Source of the DNA: Dechloromonas sp. TW-R-39-2
GTDB taxonomy: Bacteria; Pseudomonadota; Gammaproteobacteria; Burkholderiales; Rhodocyclaceae
Reading direction: 5' to 3'
DNA length: 64,000 bases
NCBI RefSeq assembly: GCF_016864195.1
Contig: NZ_CP045202.1
Location: 558,001-622,000 of the forward strand
Below, in pieces: positions 51,597 through 62,019 of the stretch. The position numbers and the translations under genes were made by a program. The notes below the pieces were generated by a model. That model made no database searches and had not been told where the DNA came from. It saw nothing but the letters and a program-made list of their open reading frames with translations. Numbering within the stretch: the first letter of the stretch is position 1; each line of letters opens with the position of its first letter.

Positions 51597-52013
51597 CTAC
51601 GCCGTCTGATACTTGTGCAAGCGGTCAACGCTTGGGATCAGTATCCACCTTCCTTCAACCTTGATCAGACCAAGCTCACTCAATTCGCGAAGGATGCGAG
51701 AAAAGTATTCTTGCGTCTGGTTGAGGCGGGAGGCAATTAGCCCTTTATTTACGTGAAGTTCGAGAACGGTATTTTCGTCATCGAGCCGGCTTTCCGGCAA
51801 TTCATGCATCAACTATCCAATGATGCGCTGCTTCCCTGAATACAAGGAATAAGCTTCAACATTGAGCATGAGTTGATGCATGCGCATGGCCATCCCGGCC
51901 TGCACTTTTCATACATAGTCGCGATCACGATCCAGTTCGTCGAAGATCACAGACTTGGAGACGTGAAGCAACAGGCAACTGCGCAGCGCTTGTGCAGAGA
52001 CATCACTGCTATA
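51597..52013 (-). pseudogene. Decayed Dnr-like Crp/Fnr regulator (C-terminal two thirds)
   Basis: Read on the minus strand in one frame, codons give SAQALRSCLLLHVSKSVIF, a TGA stop, then AMRMHQLMLNVEAYSLYSGKQRIIG, a TAG stop, then LMHELPESRLDDENTVLELH and the HTH (GLIASRLNQTQEYFSRILRELSELG). This parallels the intact regulator at 57386-58087 (AQALQDSMLIHVPKEAIL, HDLMTDVEAYSLQSAKQRIIGYLM, GVIASRLNITQEHFSRVLHDLSDSG). The N-terminal part is missing and two in-frame nonsense codons interrupt it. It abuts the terminator of the cytochrome gene. Confidence 0.88.
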
Positions 52014-52108: not shown

Positions 52109-52417
52109 TTACTTCTGGGAGAGAATCCAGGTAACGAGCTTCTTCGCTTCGTCAGGGGTAACGTTGTTCGGCGGCATCGGGATTTGACCCCAGACGCCTT
52201 TGCCACCGGCCTTGACCTTGGTGGCCAGTATGGCGACCGCCCCGGCATCGCCCTTATATTTGGCGGCGACCTCCTTGTATGCCGGGCCGACCAGCTTCTT
52301 GTCGATGGCATGGCAGGACATGCAGTTCTTGGACTTGGCCAGTGCCTCGTCGGCAATTGCCTGGCCGGAGACGCAGAGACCAACGGCAAACATCATTGCG
52401 ATATGGACAGCTTTCAT
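52109..52417 (-). CDS. Small c-type cytochrome (c551/c552-like)
   Basis: 102 residues: signal peptide MKAVHIAMMFAVGLCVSGQAIA, heme motif C32-M-S-C35-H36, and axial methionine M81 in IPMPPNNV. Mono-heme class I cytochrome of the c551 size. In denitrifiers such cytochromes donate electrons to NirS in the periplasm. A perfect Fnr/Dnr box lies 64 bases upstream, as for nirS. Monocistronic on the minus strand. Confidence 0.93.
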   Translation of the reverse strand: MKAVHIAMMFAVGLCVSGQAIADEALAKSKNCMSCHAIDKKLVGPAYKEVAAKYKGDAGAVAILATKVKAGGKGVWGQIPMPPNNVTPDEAKKLVTWILSQK

Positions 52418-52480: not shown

Positions 52481-52494
52481 TTGATGGGAATCAA
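52481..52494. promoter_or_regulatory. Fnr/Dnr box upstream of the cytochrome c gene
   Basis: TTGATGGGAATCAA, a perfect TTGAT-N4-ATCAA palindrome, 64 bases before the ATG at 52417 and nearly the same distance as the nirS box. Predicts anaerobic or NO-dependent activation. Confidence 0.88.
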
Positions 52495-52587
52495 AAGCCT
52501 GCTGAGGCCTGTCCGAGTCTGACGCTGCTCAAAGCGTCTAATTGATGAACATCAAGACGCGATGCCTGCGACTCGTTGACTACTCCG

Positions 52588-54073
52588 CTACTTGGTCAGG
52601 CGCTCGAACAACTTGACAGTGGTGTCGACACTGCGCAGAAGGCGCTCGCCCTCAGCCATGACAAGGCGGGCATGTTGGGTTCTGGCGGCATGGGAGAGAT
52701 CCGGACAGAGTGTGCGGATGAATTTCTGCCATTGGCTGGCGACCACCCGAAGCTGGGCGGCTACTTCCGGCGGGATATTCGCCGTTTTTCCCAGGGTCTG
52801 CAGGTTGCTTTCGAACTCCAGGCAGGAAGGTGGCGTCAGCCCGGCAATTTTTTCGTCCAGACTAGGCCACTCGCGAAACAGGAAGAACTTGCCGATGCGC
52901 TGCGACAGCATGCGGTTGCGGCCGGCCATGTTGACGTAATGCGCCGCAGGGAGTCCGCCCAGATCAGCCGCATGACCAGTCAGTACATCGGTTGCTTGAA
53001 GCAACTCCTCGCTCAGGTCGAATACATCTTCAACTTTTTGTGCGGATAACTCGTCGCCACGCATCAGTTGTTGATAGCGCGGCCACAAAGCTTTGATCAG
53101 CGCGAGTTTCTCGGCGAACTCAGCGGCCAGCTCTAGCTTTTCAAGACGGGCCAGGTTGCGCTCGAATTCCTTCTCCAACTGGTTGAGCTTGACCAGTGCC
53201 TTGTGTGGAGCAATCGCCGAAACGATCATGTACCACGCGATGGCCATGCGCTGCGAAAGCACACGCAGGCGACCGCACATGTTGATCAGCGCGCCAGCCG
53301 ACAGCGGAGTCTCGGCATCGAGCGCGTTGCCTTTGCGTTTTCTGCAGAAATTCAGCCTCTGCCCGTTGTCGCCGCCGACTGTATCGAGCAGGGCAGCATT
53401 CTGGATATGGACTTTGCGGCCATCGACGACAAGAACGCCGTTGTCGCTCAGTTCGCGCAGATTGCGGGAGAAAGACTCGGGCGTCATGCCAATGCGCGCC
53501 GCGATCACTTTTTTGCTGGCCTTGAGAACGATGGTCGTTTCACCCGCCATATTGGCTTTTTCTCCCGCCGATTCAAGCAGGTAGTCGAGTAAGCGTTGGG
53601 CTCCGGTCAGACCATAATGGTGGCTGGTGATATCGAACTCAATCGCGAATTGACGGCGGGCCAAGGCAGTAATGATGCGCATGCCAAATTCGCGGTGATT
53701 CTCGGTGGCCTCTCGTAGTTTACGAATATCGATCGCGACCAGCAGGGTCTGCGTGATGCAGCAACAAGTCGAAGCGTAGTGCGTGGCGCCGAATAGTTCG
53801 CCCAAGCTCAGCAGTTGCTCGCTCTGCACCAGTTCGATGACCTTGGTGGCGCCGCCGGGGATGCTGGTGCTACGCTTGATGCTGCCGTTGAACAGCAGGT
53901 GCGCTTCGCGGATCGGGTCGCCGGCTTCGTATAGTGCCTGGTTGGCCGGAAGTTCGATCAGGCGGCTCGCCTCGACCAGCTCGTTGAGCAAAACGGTCGG
54001 CAATCCGGCAAAGAACCTGCTGCCGGTGAGCAGTTCGCGCTGAGCCCGATACGGATCTTTAAAGCGGGCGTTC
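52588..54073 (-). CDS. Crp/Fnr-type regulator fused to two PilJ/NarX-like sensory repeats
   Basis: About 495 residues; the only possible start in frame is a TTG whose codon ends at 54075, after an in-frame stop at 54091-54093. Residues about 18-140 form a cyclic-nucleotide-binding-like domain, and 156-230 a Crp HTH whose recognition helix TPESFSRNLREL keeps the E-xx-SR pattern that reads TTGAT. Residues about 260-370 and 378-490 are two PilJ-type (NarX P-box-like) repeats: NMCGRLRVLSQRM (265-277) and NMAGRNRMLSQRI (382-394). No transmembrane helices, so cytoplasmic. Next to nirS and its cytochrome: a likely nitrate/nitrite- or NO-responsive one-component regulator (inference). Confidence 0.88.
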
Positions 54074-54120
54074 AATTGGAGAGGATTTCCTTAAGTTGTT
54101 CCTGACCTCATGCTAAGCAA

Positions 54121-54165
54121 AAAGAAAAGGGGGCGTAACTCCTCTCTCGGAGGAGCGATGCCCCC
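54121..54165 (-). terminator. nirS terminator
   Basis: On the minus strand, GGGGGC pairs with GCCCCC and an inner CTCCTC pairs with GAGGAG, followed by TTTTCTTT. Located just after the nirS stop codon. Confidence 0.85.
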
Positions 54166-54174
54166 TCTTTAGTC

Positions 54175-56423
<2,249 letters not shown>

Positions 56424-57221
56424 ATGAATCGACGTAGCCTAATTCTCTTTTCGCTATCAATTGTCCTTGCGTTTAGGACGCTTGCTGCGTCTGCTTCACA
56501 AGAGCGCGCAGACTGGTCCAGTTTCTTTACTACAGCCGAGGTGCACGGCACCATCGTTGTCTTAGACAACCGCAATGGGAAGGAAGTGGCTTTCGTTTAC
56601 GACTCGGAGCGCGCGGGGCGTCGCTACTCGCCGGCTTCAACCTTCAAAATTCCTCATAGCTTGTTTGCTCTTGACGCGGGAATTCTCCGTGATGAGTTCC
56701 AGGTAATTCCCTGGGATGGCATCAAGCGTTCGATAAAGGCGTGGAATGAGGACCAAAACCTACGCTCCGCGATGCGTAATTCGACTGTCTGGGTCTACGA
56801 ACGATTTGCTCGGCAGCTTGGCGATGCGCGTGAGACTGAGTACATGCGAAAGATTGCGTATGGCAACGCAGTTGCGGGAGGCGGCAAACCTTTCTGGGTC
56901 GAAGGCGACCTAGCAATTTCGGCAAATGAACAAATATCGTTCCTGCGTCATCTCTATCGTAATGAACTGCCATTCCCGGTCGAGCATCAGCGGCTCATCA
57001 AGGACGTGATGGTGAATGAGGCAGGTCGTGATTGGATATTGCGGGCTAAGACCGGCTGGAGTGGAAAGGTTGGCTGGTGGGTAGGCTGGGTCGAGTGGCC
57101 AACCGGACCGGTATTTTTTGCGCTGAACATCGATACGCCCAACAGACTGAATGACCTCTCAAAGCGGCAAGAAATTACGCGCAACATACTTCGTTCTATC
57201 AGTGCTCTGCCACCGTATTAA
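56424..57221 (+). CDS. Class D (OXA-type) beta-lactamase
   Basis: 265 residues with signal peptide MNRRSLILFSLSIVLAFRTLAASA. All class D motifs are present: S72-T-F-K75 (active-site serine and carboxylated lysine), S120-T-V, Y146-G-N, FWVEG (tryptophan 158) and K209-T-G followed by WWVGWVE. Predicted to be a functional periplasmic beta-lactamase; the OXA subgroup is not assigned. It is isolated between nirS and dnr and flanked on both sides by mosaic non-coding DNA, suggesting insertion by transfer. No integrase, attC or IS is directly visible. Confidence 0.92.
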   Translation: MNRRSLILFSLSIVLAFRTLAASASQERADWSSFFTTAEVHGTIVVLDNRNGKEVAFVYDSERAGRRYSPASTFKIPHSLFALDAGILRDEFQVIPWDGIKRSIKAWNEDQNLRSAMRNSTVWVYERFARQLGDARETEYMRKIAYGNAVAGGGKPFWVEGDLAISANEQISFLRHLYRNELPFPVEHQRLIKDVMVNEAGRDWILRAKTGWSGKVGWWVGWVEWPTGPVFFALNIDTPNRLNDLSKRQEITRNILRSISALPPY

Positions 57222-57385: not shown

Positions 57386-58087
57386 CTACGGGTTGTCTTG
57401 AGTTTTGAGGAGTTTGGACACGCTCGGAATCCGAATTTTCTTGCCATGCACCTCAAGCAGCCCGCTATCCGACAGGTCGTGCAAAACCCTGGAGAAGTGT
57501 TCCTGAGTGATGTTGAGGCGTGAGGCAATGACCCCTTTGCCTACAGTGAGCTCAAACTCCAGTTTGTCTGTGTCTATTGCTGCCTGAGGCACATCAGTCA
57601 TCAGATATCCGATAATTCGCTGCTTGGCCGACTGCAACGAGTAGGCTTCGACGTCCGTCATCAAGTCGTGTGTGCGTTTTGCCAACCCGGCTAGCATCTT
57701 CTTGGTAAAGCCGTAGTCGTGTTCCAACTCATTCAGTATGGCTTCCTTGGGGACATGAATCAGCATCGAATCCTGCAACGCTTGAGCAAAGACAATATAG
57801 GTCCGGTCCAAAAACATAATGGCTTCGCCAAAACTTTGACCCTGCTGAATTATTTCCACAATCTTCTCGTTGCCCTGAGATGATGTGAATGCTAGTTTGA
57901 CCTGGCCGAAAACCAGAAGATGAAAGCCCGTACAAGCATCTCCGGCACGAAAGAGTACATCGCCTTTTTGCGCGTGGATAAGCTTGGAGCAACTGGCAAT
58001 GTGTTCGATATCGCAGGCAGCCATGCCAGCAAACAGGGGCAAGTGAGCCAGATGGCTTTCGAGGCTGATTAACTTGTGGTCGCGCAT
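57386..58087 (-). CDS. dnr: Dnr-like Crp/Fnr-family regulator
   Basis: 233 residues from the ATG at 58087. Cyclic-nucleotide-binding-like domain (HIASCSKLIHAQKGDVLFRAGDACTGFHLLVFGQVKLAF) and HTH (GVIASRLNITQEHFSRVLHDLSDSGLLEVHG) with the E-xx-SR recognition pattern. The N-terminal cysteine cluster of oxygen-sensing Fnr is absent, which favours the Dnr/NnrR group (NO sensing through heme). Likely activator of nirS and the cytochrome. A perfect box sits at 58126-58139, very near its own start, suggesting autoregulation. Confidence 0.85.
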   Translation of the reverse strand: MRDHKLISLESHLAHLPLFAGMAACDIEHIASCSKLIHAQKGDVLFRAGDACTGFHLLVFGQVKLAFTSSQGNEKIVEIIQQGQSFGEAIMFLDRTYIVFAQALQDSMLIHVPKEAILNELEHDYGFTKKMLAGLAKRTHDLMTDVEAYSLQSAKQRIIGYLMTDVPQAAIDTDKLEFELTVGKGVIASRLNITQEHFSRVLHDLSDSGLLEVHGKKIRIPSVSKLLKTQDNP

Positions 58088-58125
58088 ATTCGTCCCGAGG
58101 CAAATGACAATGCGCAAATGATAGT

Positions 58126-58139
58126 TTGATTTGAATCAA
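58126..58139. promoter_or_regulatory. Fnr/Dnr box upstream of dnr
   Basis: TTGATTTGAATCAA, a perfect TTGAT-N4-ATCAA site only 39 bases before the dnr ATG. This spacing is short for activation with a normal leader, so repression or a nearly leaderless transcript is possible. Confidence 0.85.
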
Positions 58140-58322: not shown

Positions 58323-58330
58323 AAGTGCCC

Positions 58331-58936
58331 ATGTCTATCAACCCTCGTCAATCCACCGAGTCACGCCAGGCAGAAATCATCGCCACCATGGTTCAGCTCT
58401 CGGCCGAGCGCAGCCCTGCTGAAATAACGACCACGGACATTGCCAAAGCCATGGGGGTTACTCAGGGTGCGCTTTTTCGGCACTTCGCCACCAAGGAAGC
58501 TATCCGCCTGGCCGTGGTCGAATGGATAGATGAGCATTTGATGTTCGAACTACTGGCTGCCAAGGAGCGCTCCCCTGATGCGCTGACTGCCCTCAAGGCC
58601 ATGTTCATGGCTCACGTCGGCTTTGCCAAAGCACACCCTGGAGCGCCTCGCCTCATTTTTGGCGAGCTTCAGCAACCTGCTTCATCCCCCGTCAAGCAGC
58701 GGGTTCAGCAAATCATGCAGCGCTATCGGCAAACCCTTTCCCAAACCCTGGCCGCGGCTATTGAGGCGAAGTTGATACGCGCCGATGCCGATTGCGCAGC
58801 GGCGGCAGCCCTGTTCCTTGGGGCCATTCAGGGCTTGGTCATTCAAACCATGCTCAGCGGACACACCGAGCAGATGGAGCAACAGGCGGTCGGCGTTCTG
58901 GACCTTTATCTTGCCGCCCTTGGGGTCAAGTCATGA
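58331..58936 (+). CDS. TetR-family regulator of the exporter operon
   Basis: 201 residues from the ATG at 58331. N-terminal TetR HTH: RQAEIIATMVQLSAERSPAEITTTDIAKAMGVTQGALFRHFATKEAI. The C-terminal ligand domain has the usual variable helices. Its stop overlaps the HlyD-like gene by 4 bases, making it the first gene of the operon it probably controls. No strong ribosome site precedes it. Confidence 0.9.
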   Translation: MSINPRQSTESRQAEIIATMVQLSAERSPAEITTTDIAKAMGVTQGALFRHFATKEAIRLAVVEWIDEHLMFELLAAKERSPDALTALKAMFMAHVGFAKAHPGAPRLIFGELQQPASSPVKQRVQQIMQRYRQTLSQTLAAAIEAKLIRADADCAAAAALFLGAIQGLVIQTMLSGHTEQMEQQAVGVLDLYLAALGVKS

Positions 58937-60123
58937 AGCTAAATGGTTTTCTCAGCCGCAAGTTTGGCCTGGTGGCTTTTGCAGTGCTTCTTCTGCTCGG
59001 ATTTGGTTTTGTCGTCGCCCGGTCAGGCCCACTGGCGCCAACCAAGGTCACCATCACTCGGGTCGAAACCGGGAGCCTGTCGTCATCACTGTTCGGCATT
59101 GGCACAGTCGAAGCGCGACGCAGCTATTTTATTGGCCCCACCGCTGCTGGTCGCGTCAAAGCAGTTCATGTCGATGTGGGTGAACAGGTCAAGGCCGGGC
59201 AACTGCTGGCAGAAATCGACCCAGTCGACCTGGACGAACGACTACGTTCGCTTGAAGCCTCATACGCCCGGGCATCCAGCGCGGTTCTGGCGGCTGACGC
59301 TCAGCGCAAGGATGTTCTGGCCCGCCAGATGATTGCCAGCTTGAATGCGAAACGCTATCGCGACCTCGGCGATAAGCATTTCGTCAGCCCGAGTGCAGTT
59401 GAGAGCAAACAACAGGAACTGACATCGGCTCAGGCAGCCGTCGATGCAAGTGATGCCAACCTGCAAAGTGCCCGGCAGGAAGTCATCCGCCTGAAGGCCG
59501 ACCAGGATGCTTTACGGCAGCAACGGAATAACCTGCGCCTGGTCGCACCCGTTGACGGCGTGCTGACCAGCCGTGATGCTGAAGCTGGCTCGACAGTCGT
59601 TGCAGGGCAATCAGTGCTCAAGTTGATAGAGCCCAGCAGTCTCTGGGTCAAGGTCCGGCTGGACCAGGGGCGGTCCCGCGGCCTGGCTGCTGGACAAGCC
59701 GCAAGCATTGCCCTGCGCAGCAATCCGGGAATGCCATTAACCGGCAAGGTAGTCAGGATTGAACCGGTCAGTGACAGCGTGACCGAGGAGCGCATCACCC
59801 TGATTACCTTCGACCAGATTCCTCCTGGCCTGAGCATTGGCGAGATGGCCGAGGTGACCGTTCAAACGGCAGCCAATCAATCTGGCCTGACACTGCCCAA
59901 TGCAGCCATCAAACAAATGCCTGAGGGTTCTGGTGTCTGGAAACTACGCGATGGCAAGCCCGTCTTTGTCGCCATCAAACTCGGCACCAGCACCCTGGAT
60001 GGTGCGGTGCAGGTACTGGAAGGACTTGGCGCAGGTGACGAAATCATCGTTTTCAGCGAGCGCGAGCTGTCTGAAGGTAGCCGTGTCAAAGTTGTCGAAC
60101 AACTGGCAGGACAACGCCAGTGA
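58933..60123 (+). CDS. HlyD/RND-type periplasmic adaptor of an ABC exporter
   Basis: 396 residues: N-terminal membrane anchor (FGLVAFAVLLLLGFGFVVA), lipoyl/barrel motif (GRVKAVHVDVGEQVKAGQLLAEIDPVDLDERL), alpha hairpin (about 95-190), second barrel half (LRLVAPVDGVLTSRDAEAGSTVVAGQ), and a C-terminal membrane-proximal domain. Membrane-fusion protein linking the permease/ATPase pair to an outer-membrane channel. It overlaps the permease gene by 4 bases. Confidence 0.9.
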   Translation: MKLNGFLSRKFGLVAFAVLLLLGFGFVVARSGPLAPTKVTITRVETGSLSSSLFGIGTVEARRSYFIGPTAAGRVKAVHVDVGEQVKAGQLLAEIDPVDLDERLRSLEASYARASSAVLAADAQRKDVLARQMIASLNAKRYRDLGDKHFVSPSAVESKQQELTSAQAAVDASDANLQSARQEVIRLKADQDALRQQRNNLRLVAPVDGVLTSRDAEAGSTVVAGQSVLKLIEPSSLWVKVRLDQGRSRGLAAGQAASIALRSNPGMPLTGKVVRIEPVSDSVTEERITLITFDQIPPGLSIGEMAEVTVQTAANQSGLTLPNAAIKQMPEGSGVWKLRDGKPVFVAIKLGTSTLDGAVQVLEGLGAGDEIIVFSERELSEGSRVKVVEQLAGQRQ

Positions 60124-61313
60124 TAAGTCTGGCCGGGCGCGACATCCTGCATTCCTGGTCGAAGTTCGTGTTGACCGGAATCGGTCTTGGCTTGCTGATT
60201 GGCGTGACGCTGACCATGGCCGGAGTTTATCGAGGTATGGTCGATGATGCCAAGGCGCTGCTCAACAACAGTGGCGCTGACTTGTGGGTCGTTCAGCAGG
60301 ACACGCAGGGGCCTTATGCGGAGTCCTCGAGCATCCATGATGACGTGTACCGTTCAATGCTCAGCCTGTCGGGCGTGGCTCGCGCCGCCAACGTGACTTA
60401 TCTGACCATGCAGGTTCGTCTGGACAATACCGATGTGCGTGCGATGGTTGTAGGTTTCGAGCCAGGGCAGCCGGGAGAGCCCGGCTACCTGATTGCCGGA
60501 CGTCACATTACCCGTAACCATTACGAGGCCGTCGCCGACGTCAAAACCGGGTTCCAACTGGGCGATAGCATTCGGATTCGTCGGCACGACTACCGGGTCG
60601 TCGGCCTGACCAAACGCATGGTTTCGTCCGGCGGCGACCCCATGGTCTTCATTCCGCTGAAGGATGCACAGGAGGCACAGTTCCTGAAGGACAACGATGC
60701 CATCCTCAATGAGCGGGCAAGAACAACGGCCAATCCGACATTGAATCGCCCGGGCGTGCCGGGTTTGCTCGAGGCCATCCAGGCATCGCAGAACGCGAAT
60801 CGCAACGTCAATGCCGTGCTGGTTCAGGTGGCATCAGGAAGCAAGCCCGAGACTGTCGCAAATGATGTCAGGCGCTGGAAGCACCTGGAGGCTTTCACCC
60901 GGGTTCAAATGGAAGAGATTCTGGTGGCGAAGCTGATTGCCACCTCGGCCAGGCAAATCGCGATGTTTCTGGTAATTCTTGCGGTGGTCAGCGCGGCCAT
61001 CGTCGCTTTCATTATTTACACGATGACTTTGGGCAAGATTCGCGAGATTGCCGTGTTGAAGCTGATTGGCACGCGTAACCGGACCATTGCCGGGATGATT
61101 CTTCAGCAGGCACTGGGTCTGGGGCTTATCGGTTTTCTCGTCGGCAAGGTTTCGGCCACTGCCTGGGCGCCATTCTTTCCCAAGTATGTTCTGCTGGAGC
61201 CAGGCGATGCAGCGCGCGGCTTTGTCGTGGTCATGGTCATTTGTGCGCTGGCCAGCACGCTGGCGATTCGGGCTGCCCTGCGCGTAGACCCGGCCACCGC
61301 CATTGGAGGATGA
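60120..61313 (+). CDS. FtsX-like ABC permease (DevC/MacB-like)
   Basis: 397 residues: one N-terminal helix (SKFVLTGIGLGLLIGVTLTMAGVY), a large periplasmic domain (about 45-265), then three helices with the FtsX motif (AIVAFIIYTMTLGKIREIAVLKLIGTRNRTI). Works with the adjacent adaptor and ATPase in a DevBCA/MacAB-like exporter. Substrate unknown. Confidence 0.9.
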   Translation: MISLAGRDILHSWSKFVLTGIGLGLLIGVTLTMAGVYRGMVDDAKALLNNSGADLWVVQQDTQGPYAESSSIHDDVYRSMLSLSGVARAANVTYLTMQVRLDNTDVRAMVVGFEPGQPGEPGYLIAGRHITRNHYEAVADVKTGFQLGDSIRIRRHDYRVVGLTKRMVSSGGDPMVFIPLKDAQEAQFLKDNDAILNERARTTANPTLNRPGVPGLLEAIQASQNANRNVNAVLVQVASGSKPETVANDVRRWKHLEAFTRVQMEEILVAKLIATSARQIAMFLVILAVVSAAIVAFIIYTMTLGKIREIAVLKLIGTRNRTIAGMILQQALGLGLIGFLVGKVSATAWAPFFPKYVLLEPGDAARGFVVVMVICALASTLAIRAALRVDPATAIGG

Positions 61314-61314
61314 G

Positions 61315-62019
61315 ATGGACGGTTTCGGCATTCGCATCGAAGGCTTGAGCAAGCGCTATGGCGAGGGCGATACCGCGGTCGACGCCTTGAAAGACGTCAA
61401 TATGACCGTCGCCCCCGGGGAGGTGGTGGGATTGATTGGCCCCTCAGGTTCCGGAAAAAGCACCCTGCTCAAGTGCCTGGGCGCGGTAATAGAACCGACT
61501 ACCGGCAAGATGACGCTGGGTGACGAGGTCATCTACGACAATGGCTGGAAAATTCCCGACCTGCGCGCCTTGCGCCGCGACCGGATTGGGTTCGTATTTC
61601 AGGCCCCCTATCTGATTCCATTTCTCGATGTTATCGACAACGTAGCCTTGTTACCCATGCTGGCCGGCAGGCCGAATGGTGAATCAAGAAAGCGCGCGCT
61701 GGAGTTGCTTGAAGCACTGGATGTCGGGCACCGCGCCAAAGCCCAACCGTCGCAACTGTCGGGCGGGGAGCAACAACGCGTGGCAATTGCCCGGGCCCTG
61801 GCGAATCAGCCGCCCGTCATCCTCGCCGATGAGCCGACCGCACCTTTGGACAGCGAACGCGCCTTGAGTGTCGTGCGCATCCTCAACCAGATGGCGCTGC
61901 AGTTCAATACGGCCATCATCGTGGTGACCCACGATGAGAAAATCATTCCTACCTTCAAGCGGATTTACCACATTCGCGATGGCAAAACCTTTGAAGAAAA
62001 AGGCCAGGCTCTGAGCTGA
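61315..62019 (+). CDS. ABC exporter ATP-binding protein (DevA/LolD-like)
   Basis: 234 residues from the ATG at 61315 (GGAGG 5 bases upstream). Walker A GPSGSGKST, Q-loop VFQAPYLIPF, signature LSGGEQQRVAIARAL, Walker B PVILADEPTAPLDS, switch VVTHDEKI. The D-loop PTAPLD differs from the more common PTGNLD of LolD and MacB. Last gene of the TetR-HlyD-FtsX-ATPase operon. Confidence 0.93.
   Translation: MDGFGIRIEGLSKRYGEGDTAVDALKDVNMTVAPGEVVGLIGPSGSGKSTLLKCLGAVIEPTTGKMTLGDEVIYDNGWKIPDLRALRRDRIGFVFQAPYLIPFLDVIDNVALLPMLAGRPNGESRKRALELLEALDVGHRAKAQPSQLSGGEQQRVAIARALANQPPVILADEPTAPLDSERALSVVRILNQMALQFNTAIIVVTHDEKIIPTFKRIYHIRDGKTFEEKGQALS

Follow-up and report, generated by a model that had tools for sequence, protein, structure and literature searches.

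Among the described sensors of nitrate and nitrite, NasR of Klebsiella oxytoca is a NIT-ANTAR antiterminator, i.e., a one-component sensor in which an N-terminal NIT domain is joined to an RNA-binding ANTAR output, NarX and NarQ are periplasmic sensors of membrane histidine kinases in two-component systems, and McpN of Pseudomonas aeruginosa is a periplasmic PilJ-domain nitrate chemoreceptor with a chemotaxis output. DNR, a Crp/Fnr regulator of denitrification in P. aeruginosa, has nothing sensor-like after its helix-turn-helix (HTH) domain. Here we analyze a stretch of 64,000 nucleotides from Dechloromonas sp. TW-R-39-2 (contig NZ_CP045202.1, positions 558,001 to 622,000; the whole stretch is called the window), in which the gene next to nirS, the cytochrome cd1 nitrite reductase gene, encodes a Crp/Fnr regulator fused to two PilJ domains. 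Like NasR, this protein would be a one-component sensor, but its sensor module is C-terminal and its output is Crp/Fnr; unlike McpN, it is not a chemoreceptor, and unlike NarX and NarQ, it has neither a kinase nor a membrane segment. In contrast to DNR, it carries a sensor domain after the HTH. We consider it rather probable that the fusion is a cytoplasmic one-component regulator of denitrification, in which the PilJ pair binds nitrate or nitrite and the Crp half acts at boxes upstream of nirS. The timing with which nirS is switched on governs nitrite build-up and nitrous oxide (N2O) release by denitrifiers, and we judge such a regulator to be of interest for regulation in Rhodocyclales denitrifiers.

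Domain composition and family of the fusion protein

The fusion gene occupies 52588..54075 on the minus strand and encodes, from a TTG start, 495 amino acids followed by a stop codon, as given by the open reading frame (ORF) list, Pfam, and its relatives. The first-pass annotation, a model's reading of the same letters, had proposed that a Crp-type activator and tandem PilJ-like repeats are joined in this one ORF, and Pfam upheld the domain order: cNMP_binding (2.3e-8), HTH_Crp_2 (5.3e-12), and PilJ (1.3e-16), the match on which the proposal hung, were all found and exceeded their curated cut-offs. PilJ (PF13675) scored 61.1 bits over two stretches against a cut-off of 26.6, and each copy taken singly was also above it (36.2 and 30.5 bits). 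According to Pfam, the model, and its match to DNR (3dkw, E 3.7e-15), the nearest solved protein by sequence, the Crp/Fnr half (residues 1-230, 53386..54075) comprises a cNMP-type barrel, a dimer helix, and a winged HTH. Its recognition helix (residues 199-211, 53443..53481), placed by conservation and helical in the model, carries the E-xx-SR residues that had been pointed out (E200, S203, and R204). A linker of low model confidence (residues 231-258, 53302..53385; predicted local distance difference test, pLDDT, <50 at residues 235-239 and 244-255) leads to PilJ copy 1 (residues 259-373, 52957..53301) and to PilJ copy 2 (residues 374-495, 52591..52956; Pfam, models), of four helices each. 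Both P-box-like motifs proposed earlier are present, the first, NMCGRLRVLSQR, with G268 and R271 (residues 265-276, 53248..53283), and the second, NMAGRNRMLSQR, with G385 and R388 (residues 382-393, 52897..52932); all of these parts lie on the minus strand.

On the 19-residue Kyte-Doolittle scale, where the usual membrane level is 1.6, the highest mean in the fusion is 1.41. It has no membrane-level hydrophobic segment, in keeping with the earlier description, and on this ground a membrane or periplasmic sensor was rejected. No signal peptide was seen by eye at the N-terminus of the fusion, and Pfam returned no kinase domain for it. The protein is confirmed as a soluble Crp/Fnr-type regulator with a PilJ-type sensor half.

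A search with the fusion protein found at least 197 relatives at E<=1e-3, and the 120 listed from it carry PF13545 and PF13675 in their precomputed domains; a profile built from 19 diverse members gave at least 1452 matches at E<=1e-30, and the 120 listed share the Crp–PilJ make-up (both searches scored the 8000 candidates sharing most words). Since these relatives, at about 31-92% identity, hold the same fusion in many separate genomes and metagenomes, the worry that an assembly error had joined two genes is refuted; no evidence in its favor turned up, and we rejected such an artefact as virtually impossible. Named genomes with the fusion belong to Dechloromonas, Thauera, Accumulibacter, Propionivibrio, and other Rhodocyclales-type records, and the source names of the relatives are generic ("type IV pili methyl-accepting chemotaxis transducer N-terminal domain-containing protein", "CRP-like cAMP-binding protein"). 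The fusion is uncommon, with five near-full-length cases in 300 genomes sampled from the order; it was found in 23 of 199 genomes sampled from the family (E<=1e-40), one of which, G459, aligned in the Crp half only.

Conservation was read mainly from 231 fetched relatives and the window protein, 232 in all. The E-xx-SR pattern is invariant (232/232), and R271 (231), R388 (231), G268 (229), and G385 (232) belong to the best-conserved positions in the C-terminal half. A second set, from genome loci, had 53 rows, among them the window's own copy (L093) and two partial rows (L015 and L115); duplicates (L094, L095, L096, L101, L103, and L116) had been removed. There, all 52 rows that reach R271 keep it, and R388 is retained by 50 of the 52 that extend to it. 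Without the partial rows and the window copy, 50 rows entered a fusion tree, in which we distinguish a main clade (34 rows) and a deep clade. G-x-x-R is described as the nitrate-binding motif of NarX, NarQ, and McpN, the NasR version being asymmetric and partly conserved (PMC8199190), and the key arginine (R61 of McpN) is present within it in both copies, as G268xxR271 and G385xxR388. Members of the nirS-linked clade mostly have, in place of Q before this arginine, L in the first copy and N in the second. The McpN paper also gives a stricter N-box, [IVL]-[ND]-x-A-G-x-Q-R-M-L-[ST]-Q (PMC6381276), which copy 1 matches in 65 and both copies in 17 of the 232 proteins; within the 53-row set, every strict match falls in the deep clade.

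Stand-alone PilJ proteins of 260 and 285 amino acids, with apparent signal peptides by eye, are encoded elsewhere in the same genome, G000 (L089:5705-6487 and L090:5954-6811, both on the plus strand); one has two PilJ matches and the other only one, with a second motif that is weaker, and both may be related to the fused module. Stand-alone proteins matching the C-terminal half of the fusion also occur in other genomes of the order.

Predicted fold of the sensor half

With the model of the C-terminal half as the Foldseek query, the eight-helix NIT domain of NasR was the best full-length structural match. Over the whole length, NasR superposed with a root-mean-square deviation of 4.9 and a template-modeling (TM) score of 0.66, compared with 23 and 0.26 for the PilJ chemoreceptor, whose tandem PilJ domains align with one bundle of the module only. 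Structure prediction, a check that the first-pass annotation had suggested, thus yields a sensor half predicted to fold, like the NasR NIT domain, into two bundles with eight helices in all, despite an identity to that domain of about 9-10%. R271 falls in predicted helix 1 and R388 in predicted helix 5; in NasR, the pocket arginine R176 is reported to belong to helix 5, and the pocket network is drawn with helices 1, 5, and 6. The protein had been proposed to be a nitrate/nitrite or nitric oxide (NO) switch, and the nitrate/nitrite part of that proposal gains strength because of the predicted NasR-NIT-like fold and the conserved GxxR arginines.

Linkage to nirS and paired boxes

On the minus strand of the window, the fusion ORF of 495 codons stands, as first described, between nirS (54175..55905; Cytochrom_D1 7.1e-150; its sequence puts the likely ATG at 55905) and a small class I cytochrome c gene (52109..52417; Pfam), whose product is likely the electron donor to NirS. 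Neighboring genes at other fusion loci were located by tblastn. Of the 34 main-clade rows, 24 have nirS immediately upstream in the same orientation and seven do not, the neighborhood of the other three being unreadable; across all linked loci, the gap between nirS and the fusion gene is 85-115 bp. All nine NirS copies of the family sample that are >=87% identical to the window's are followed directly by the fusion gene, as judged from coordinates, and NirS occurs in 22 of the 23 fusion genomes vs. 102 of the 176 others (p 1.8e-4, with no correction for kinship). The suggested survey of nir loci therefore found the fusion beside nirS in many relatives, so that the arrangement is not unique to this genome, although it is not universal.

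In the deep clade, one fusion (L128) is beside a 75%-identical nirS, another (L126) is near COX1-like and SCO1-type genes (L127 looks alike by eye), and a third (L122, genome G324) is divergent from nosZ, which suggests a control region shared by the fusion gene and nitrous oxide reductase on this deep branch. Within the main clade, L020, without adjoining nirS, has nosD a few kb away. Neighbors of unlinked fusions include sensor kinases, GGDEF/EAL proteins, an amidase, and, by eye, ClpS/ClpA-like genes, with no common theme apart from nos genes in two cases and, close to L037 (a fusion without adjoining nirS), a NIT-GGDEF-EAL gene. This last gene (L037:6535-9258, minus strand) encodes a NIT-PAS-GGDEF-EAL protein, and PDB searches with it gave only cyclase, phosphodiesterase, and PAS-type proteins among the best 60 matches listed. 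A Dechloromonas contig (SSXW01000026.1) holds two nirS-fusion-cytochrome units (L009 and L017) about 31 kb apart, whose fusions are 92% and 64% identical to the window's.

Five perfect TTGAT-N4-ATCAA sites occur in the window, where 0.02 are predicted from base composition; in a control permitting one mismatch, 1.92 sites were expected and 3 of 100 shuffles reached five. Two of the sites, for none of which a strand is assigned, precede nirS (55972..55985, of Crp/Fnr type and nearest the gene, and 56033..56046, exactly 61 bp upstream), two precede the cytochrome c gene (52481..52494, the nearest, and 52542..52555, again exactly 61 bp upstream), and one stands singly upstream of a DNR-type regulator gene (58126..58139). 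The boxes at 52481, 55972, and 58126 had been named before and are real, and those at 52542 and 56033 had been overlooked. The two boxes of a pair would presumably lie near -41.5 and -102.5, and CRP may act synergistically at such spacings. The whole genome (3.46 Mb) contains eight perfect boxes, and the three outside the window precede a ccmA-like gene, a porin-like gene, and a second DNR-type gene (names by eye).

Counting a box pair when both boxes together had <=3 mismatches, we found one in all 23 testable linked main-clade nirS promoters, spaced 61 bp in 20 and 62 bp in three (L031, L157, and L159). L009, L010, L015, and L016 among them are close kin of the window. The partial row L015 was included in this count; L013 and L036 are linked with too little upstream DNA for the test, L160 is the same as L026 and was left out, and L097-L100 were taken with more upstream DNA as L159, L156, L157, and L158. 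For L157-L159, whose nirS portion is too short for a tblastn match, box positions were set against known nirS coordinates. The letters of the upstream nirS box drift, from TTGAT to TTGAC or TTGTC, while the spacing stays fixed, and this pattern in the sequences argues for function. By comparison, 33 nirS genes without adjoining fusion had a pair within the same mismatch limit at 60-62 bp in a single case (L147). These controls comprised 20 genes hand-picked, non-consecutively, from the higher-scoring non-adjacent NirS rows of the family sample, two of which (L143 and L147) come from genomes with an unlinked deep-clade fusion, and 13 from genomes with a fusion elsewhere, among which L167 offered just 178 bases of upstream sequence. 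In 15 of the 20 family controls, at least one box with <=1 mismatch was present. Where the cytochrome c gene was matched in fusion loci, 12 of 13 rows, the window among them, had a pair, at 61 bp in ten, 60 bp in L013, and 62 bp in L023; in the remaining row, L099, the boxes have 1 plus 3 mismatches at 61 bp.

Comparison with DNR

DNR and other Crp/Fnr denitrification regulators share with the fusion the N-terminal half, E-xx-SR, and TTGAT-N4-ATCAA boxes, and the window itself encodes a DNR-type regulator of 243 amino acids (57386..58117, minus strand; Pfam, alignment). The fusion might be an NO-responsive activator of the DNR type, with the PilJ half as a mere dimerization or stability module; DNR is the solved protein closest to its N-terminal half, and boxes of this type are given as the DNR consensus (PMC1274295). 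However, His139, which is present in DNR and described as important for heme (PMC8510549), is F143 in the fusion, and among 50 fusions this position holds C 26 times and H once, whereas the DNR-type neighbor and a paralogue in L133 keep the histidine. The motif positions of the PilJ half, moreover, rank among its most conserved columns. We find this alternative decidedly improbable, and, because the heme-ligand histidine is replaced, heme-based NO sensing by the DNR route was rejected as the main signal of the fusion; NO as a signal by this route, one reading of the earlier proposal, is not supported.

A DNR-like gene remnant (51606-52001, minus strand) is present just downstream of the cytochrome c gene. 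It is 53% identical to residues 109-240 of the 57386-58117 protein and has an in-frame stop; its N-terminal half was not found, and matching stretches occur in L009, L010, and L016.

Proposed mechanism and alternatives

Starting from what is established for the fusion, i.e., its domains, conservation, linkage, and two-box promoters, we infer a ligand, promoter occupancy, and a direction of control as follows. The Crp/Fnr half, with its invariant E-xx-SR helix, would bind TTGAT-N4-ATCAA boxes as a dimer, and the two PilJ four-helix bundles are predicted to pack in the manner of the NasR NIT domain. Within one chain, the two helices bearing the motifs would then make up a pseudo-symmetric pocket, with R271 (helix 1) and R388 (helix 5) clamping one nitrate or nitrite, and binding would change how the sensor module holds the Crp half, by analogy with what has been put forward for NasR and its ANTAR half. 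The main-clade fusion would act at the nirS and linked cytochrome c promoters together with heme-type DNR, and nirS would thereby respond to its substrate as well as to NO. Two Fnr-type proteins are described as acting at one promoter in Herbaspirillum seropedicae, in that account without a second site (PMC5934665). If true, the mechanism would be a soluble, one-protein link from oxyanion to nirS promoter, would give a NasR-like pocket a DNA-binding output, and would offer a promoter design testable via one spacing.

A more elaborate version of this mechanism is less likely, and we offer it tentatively: nirS, the fusion, and the two-box promoter may form a conserved cassette in which an oxyanion-sensing fusion and a heme-type DNR act on two boxes a fixed 61-62 bp apart, so that nirS and the cytochrome need both oxyanion and NO, and in which the nirS-linked clade would have retuned its pocket (Q to L and N ahead of the key arginines), perhaps from nitrate towards nitrite. 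In McpN, nitrate is reported at the interface of two chains, and in such a cassette a single fusion chain would hold both halves of the pocket that McpN builds from two.

A number of observations weigh against a nitrate/nitrite-binding regulator of nirS. On the side of the sensor, Pfam gave the fusion no NIT match (PF08376) at E<=1, in contrast to its two PilJ matches, and a PDB sequence search with the sensor half reached McpN at E 0.17, which is not significant. Neither window copy fits the strict N-box, and strict membership of the McpN N-box class was therefore rejected. The ligand-binding domain of PilJ (PilJ-LBD), a tandem of PilJ domains, and the PA4520 NIT domain are both reported to bind neither nitrate nor nitrite, and NarX and NarQ also accept sulfite (PMC6381276). 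The pocket might thus serve another oxyanion (e.g., sulfite, or, as a guess, chlorate or perchlorate in Dechloromonas) or a small metabolite, for which the variable residue before the key arginine, with its L and N in the nirS-linked clade, would also speak; yet the pocket arginines and glycines are conserved, and the genomic link is to nirS, plus nos genes in two loci. We regard a one-component regulator with such a different ligand as unlikely.

On the side of the promoter, seven main-clade rows, out of 31 whose neighborhood could be read, are not beside nirS, and G423 (81% complete) has the fusion and no NirS at threshold. The unlinked nirS of L147 has a weak pair (0 plus 3 mismatches at 62 bp), while L128, the sole nirS-linked case of the deep clade, has none. 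In the 11 searched genomes of unlinked fusions, ten of them with NirS, the other nirS genes also lack a pair; therefore, the fusion there acts elsewhere or through one box. The two-box link may, in addition, have been inherited with the nirS clade and not be due to the regulator, and shared descent is a real confounder because the linked nirS genes are close kin. The promoter could then belong to FNR plus DNR, with the fusion hitch-hiking beside nirS, particularly as Crp/Fnr paralogues share the box type and the genome has eight HTH_Crp_2 matches, including the fusion and one decayed remnant. Against this, an unlinked nirS about 85% identical to the window's (L161), in a genome whose fusion (L040) is elsewhere and does not belong to the 34-row clade, carries a single box; the spacing is held despite drifting box letters, and the linked cytochrome c promoter repeats the pair. 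Hitch-hiking is therefore somewhat improbable, in our estimate, and we retain the fusion as the probable regulator acting at the nirS boxes.

PilJ and N-box proteins have been mentioned, in general terms and without detail, to include transcriptional regulators (PMC6381276). The parts of the fusion are all known, and among the titles listed, our literature search found no description of the Crp/Fnr-PilJ family, of its module resembling NasR, or of the link between nirS and the paired boxes.

Other features of the locus

Between nirS and the fusion gene, a GC-rich hairpin followed by a T-rich tract (54129..54165, minus strand; read from the sequence, and by folding) is terminator- or attenuator-like, and a terminator scan did not list it. 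A hairpin with a T-rich tail, which in the window falls within 54076-54174, occurs in many linked loci with letters that differ between lineages; L019, L097, and L113 are among the loci where folding showed little or no excess stability over mononucleotide shuffles. In many linked loci, the hairpin is followed by a stretch resembling TTGCTTAG-ATG, by eye a possible promoter -10 element. A sigma-70 scan gave one promoter-like site vs. 3.1 expected.

Two further nirS-like genes of the same genome, G000 (C1 1224919-1226514 and 2530446-2532008; 63 and 65% identity), have no perfect boxes nearby. Between nirS and the DNR-type gene of the window, 56424-57221 (plus strand) encodes a penicillin-binding transpeptidase-fold protein of 265 amino acids, which we take to resemble a class D beta-lactamase by its motifs STFK, YGN, and KTG. 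Further along, 58325-62019 (plus strand) holds an efflux-type operon of a TetR regulator, an HlyD-type protein, a MacB/FtsX permease, and an ABC ATPase.
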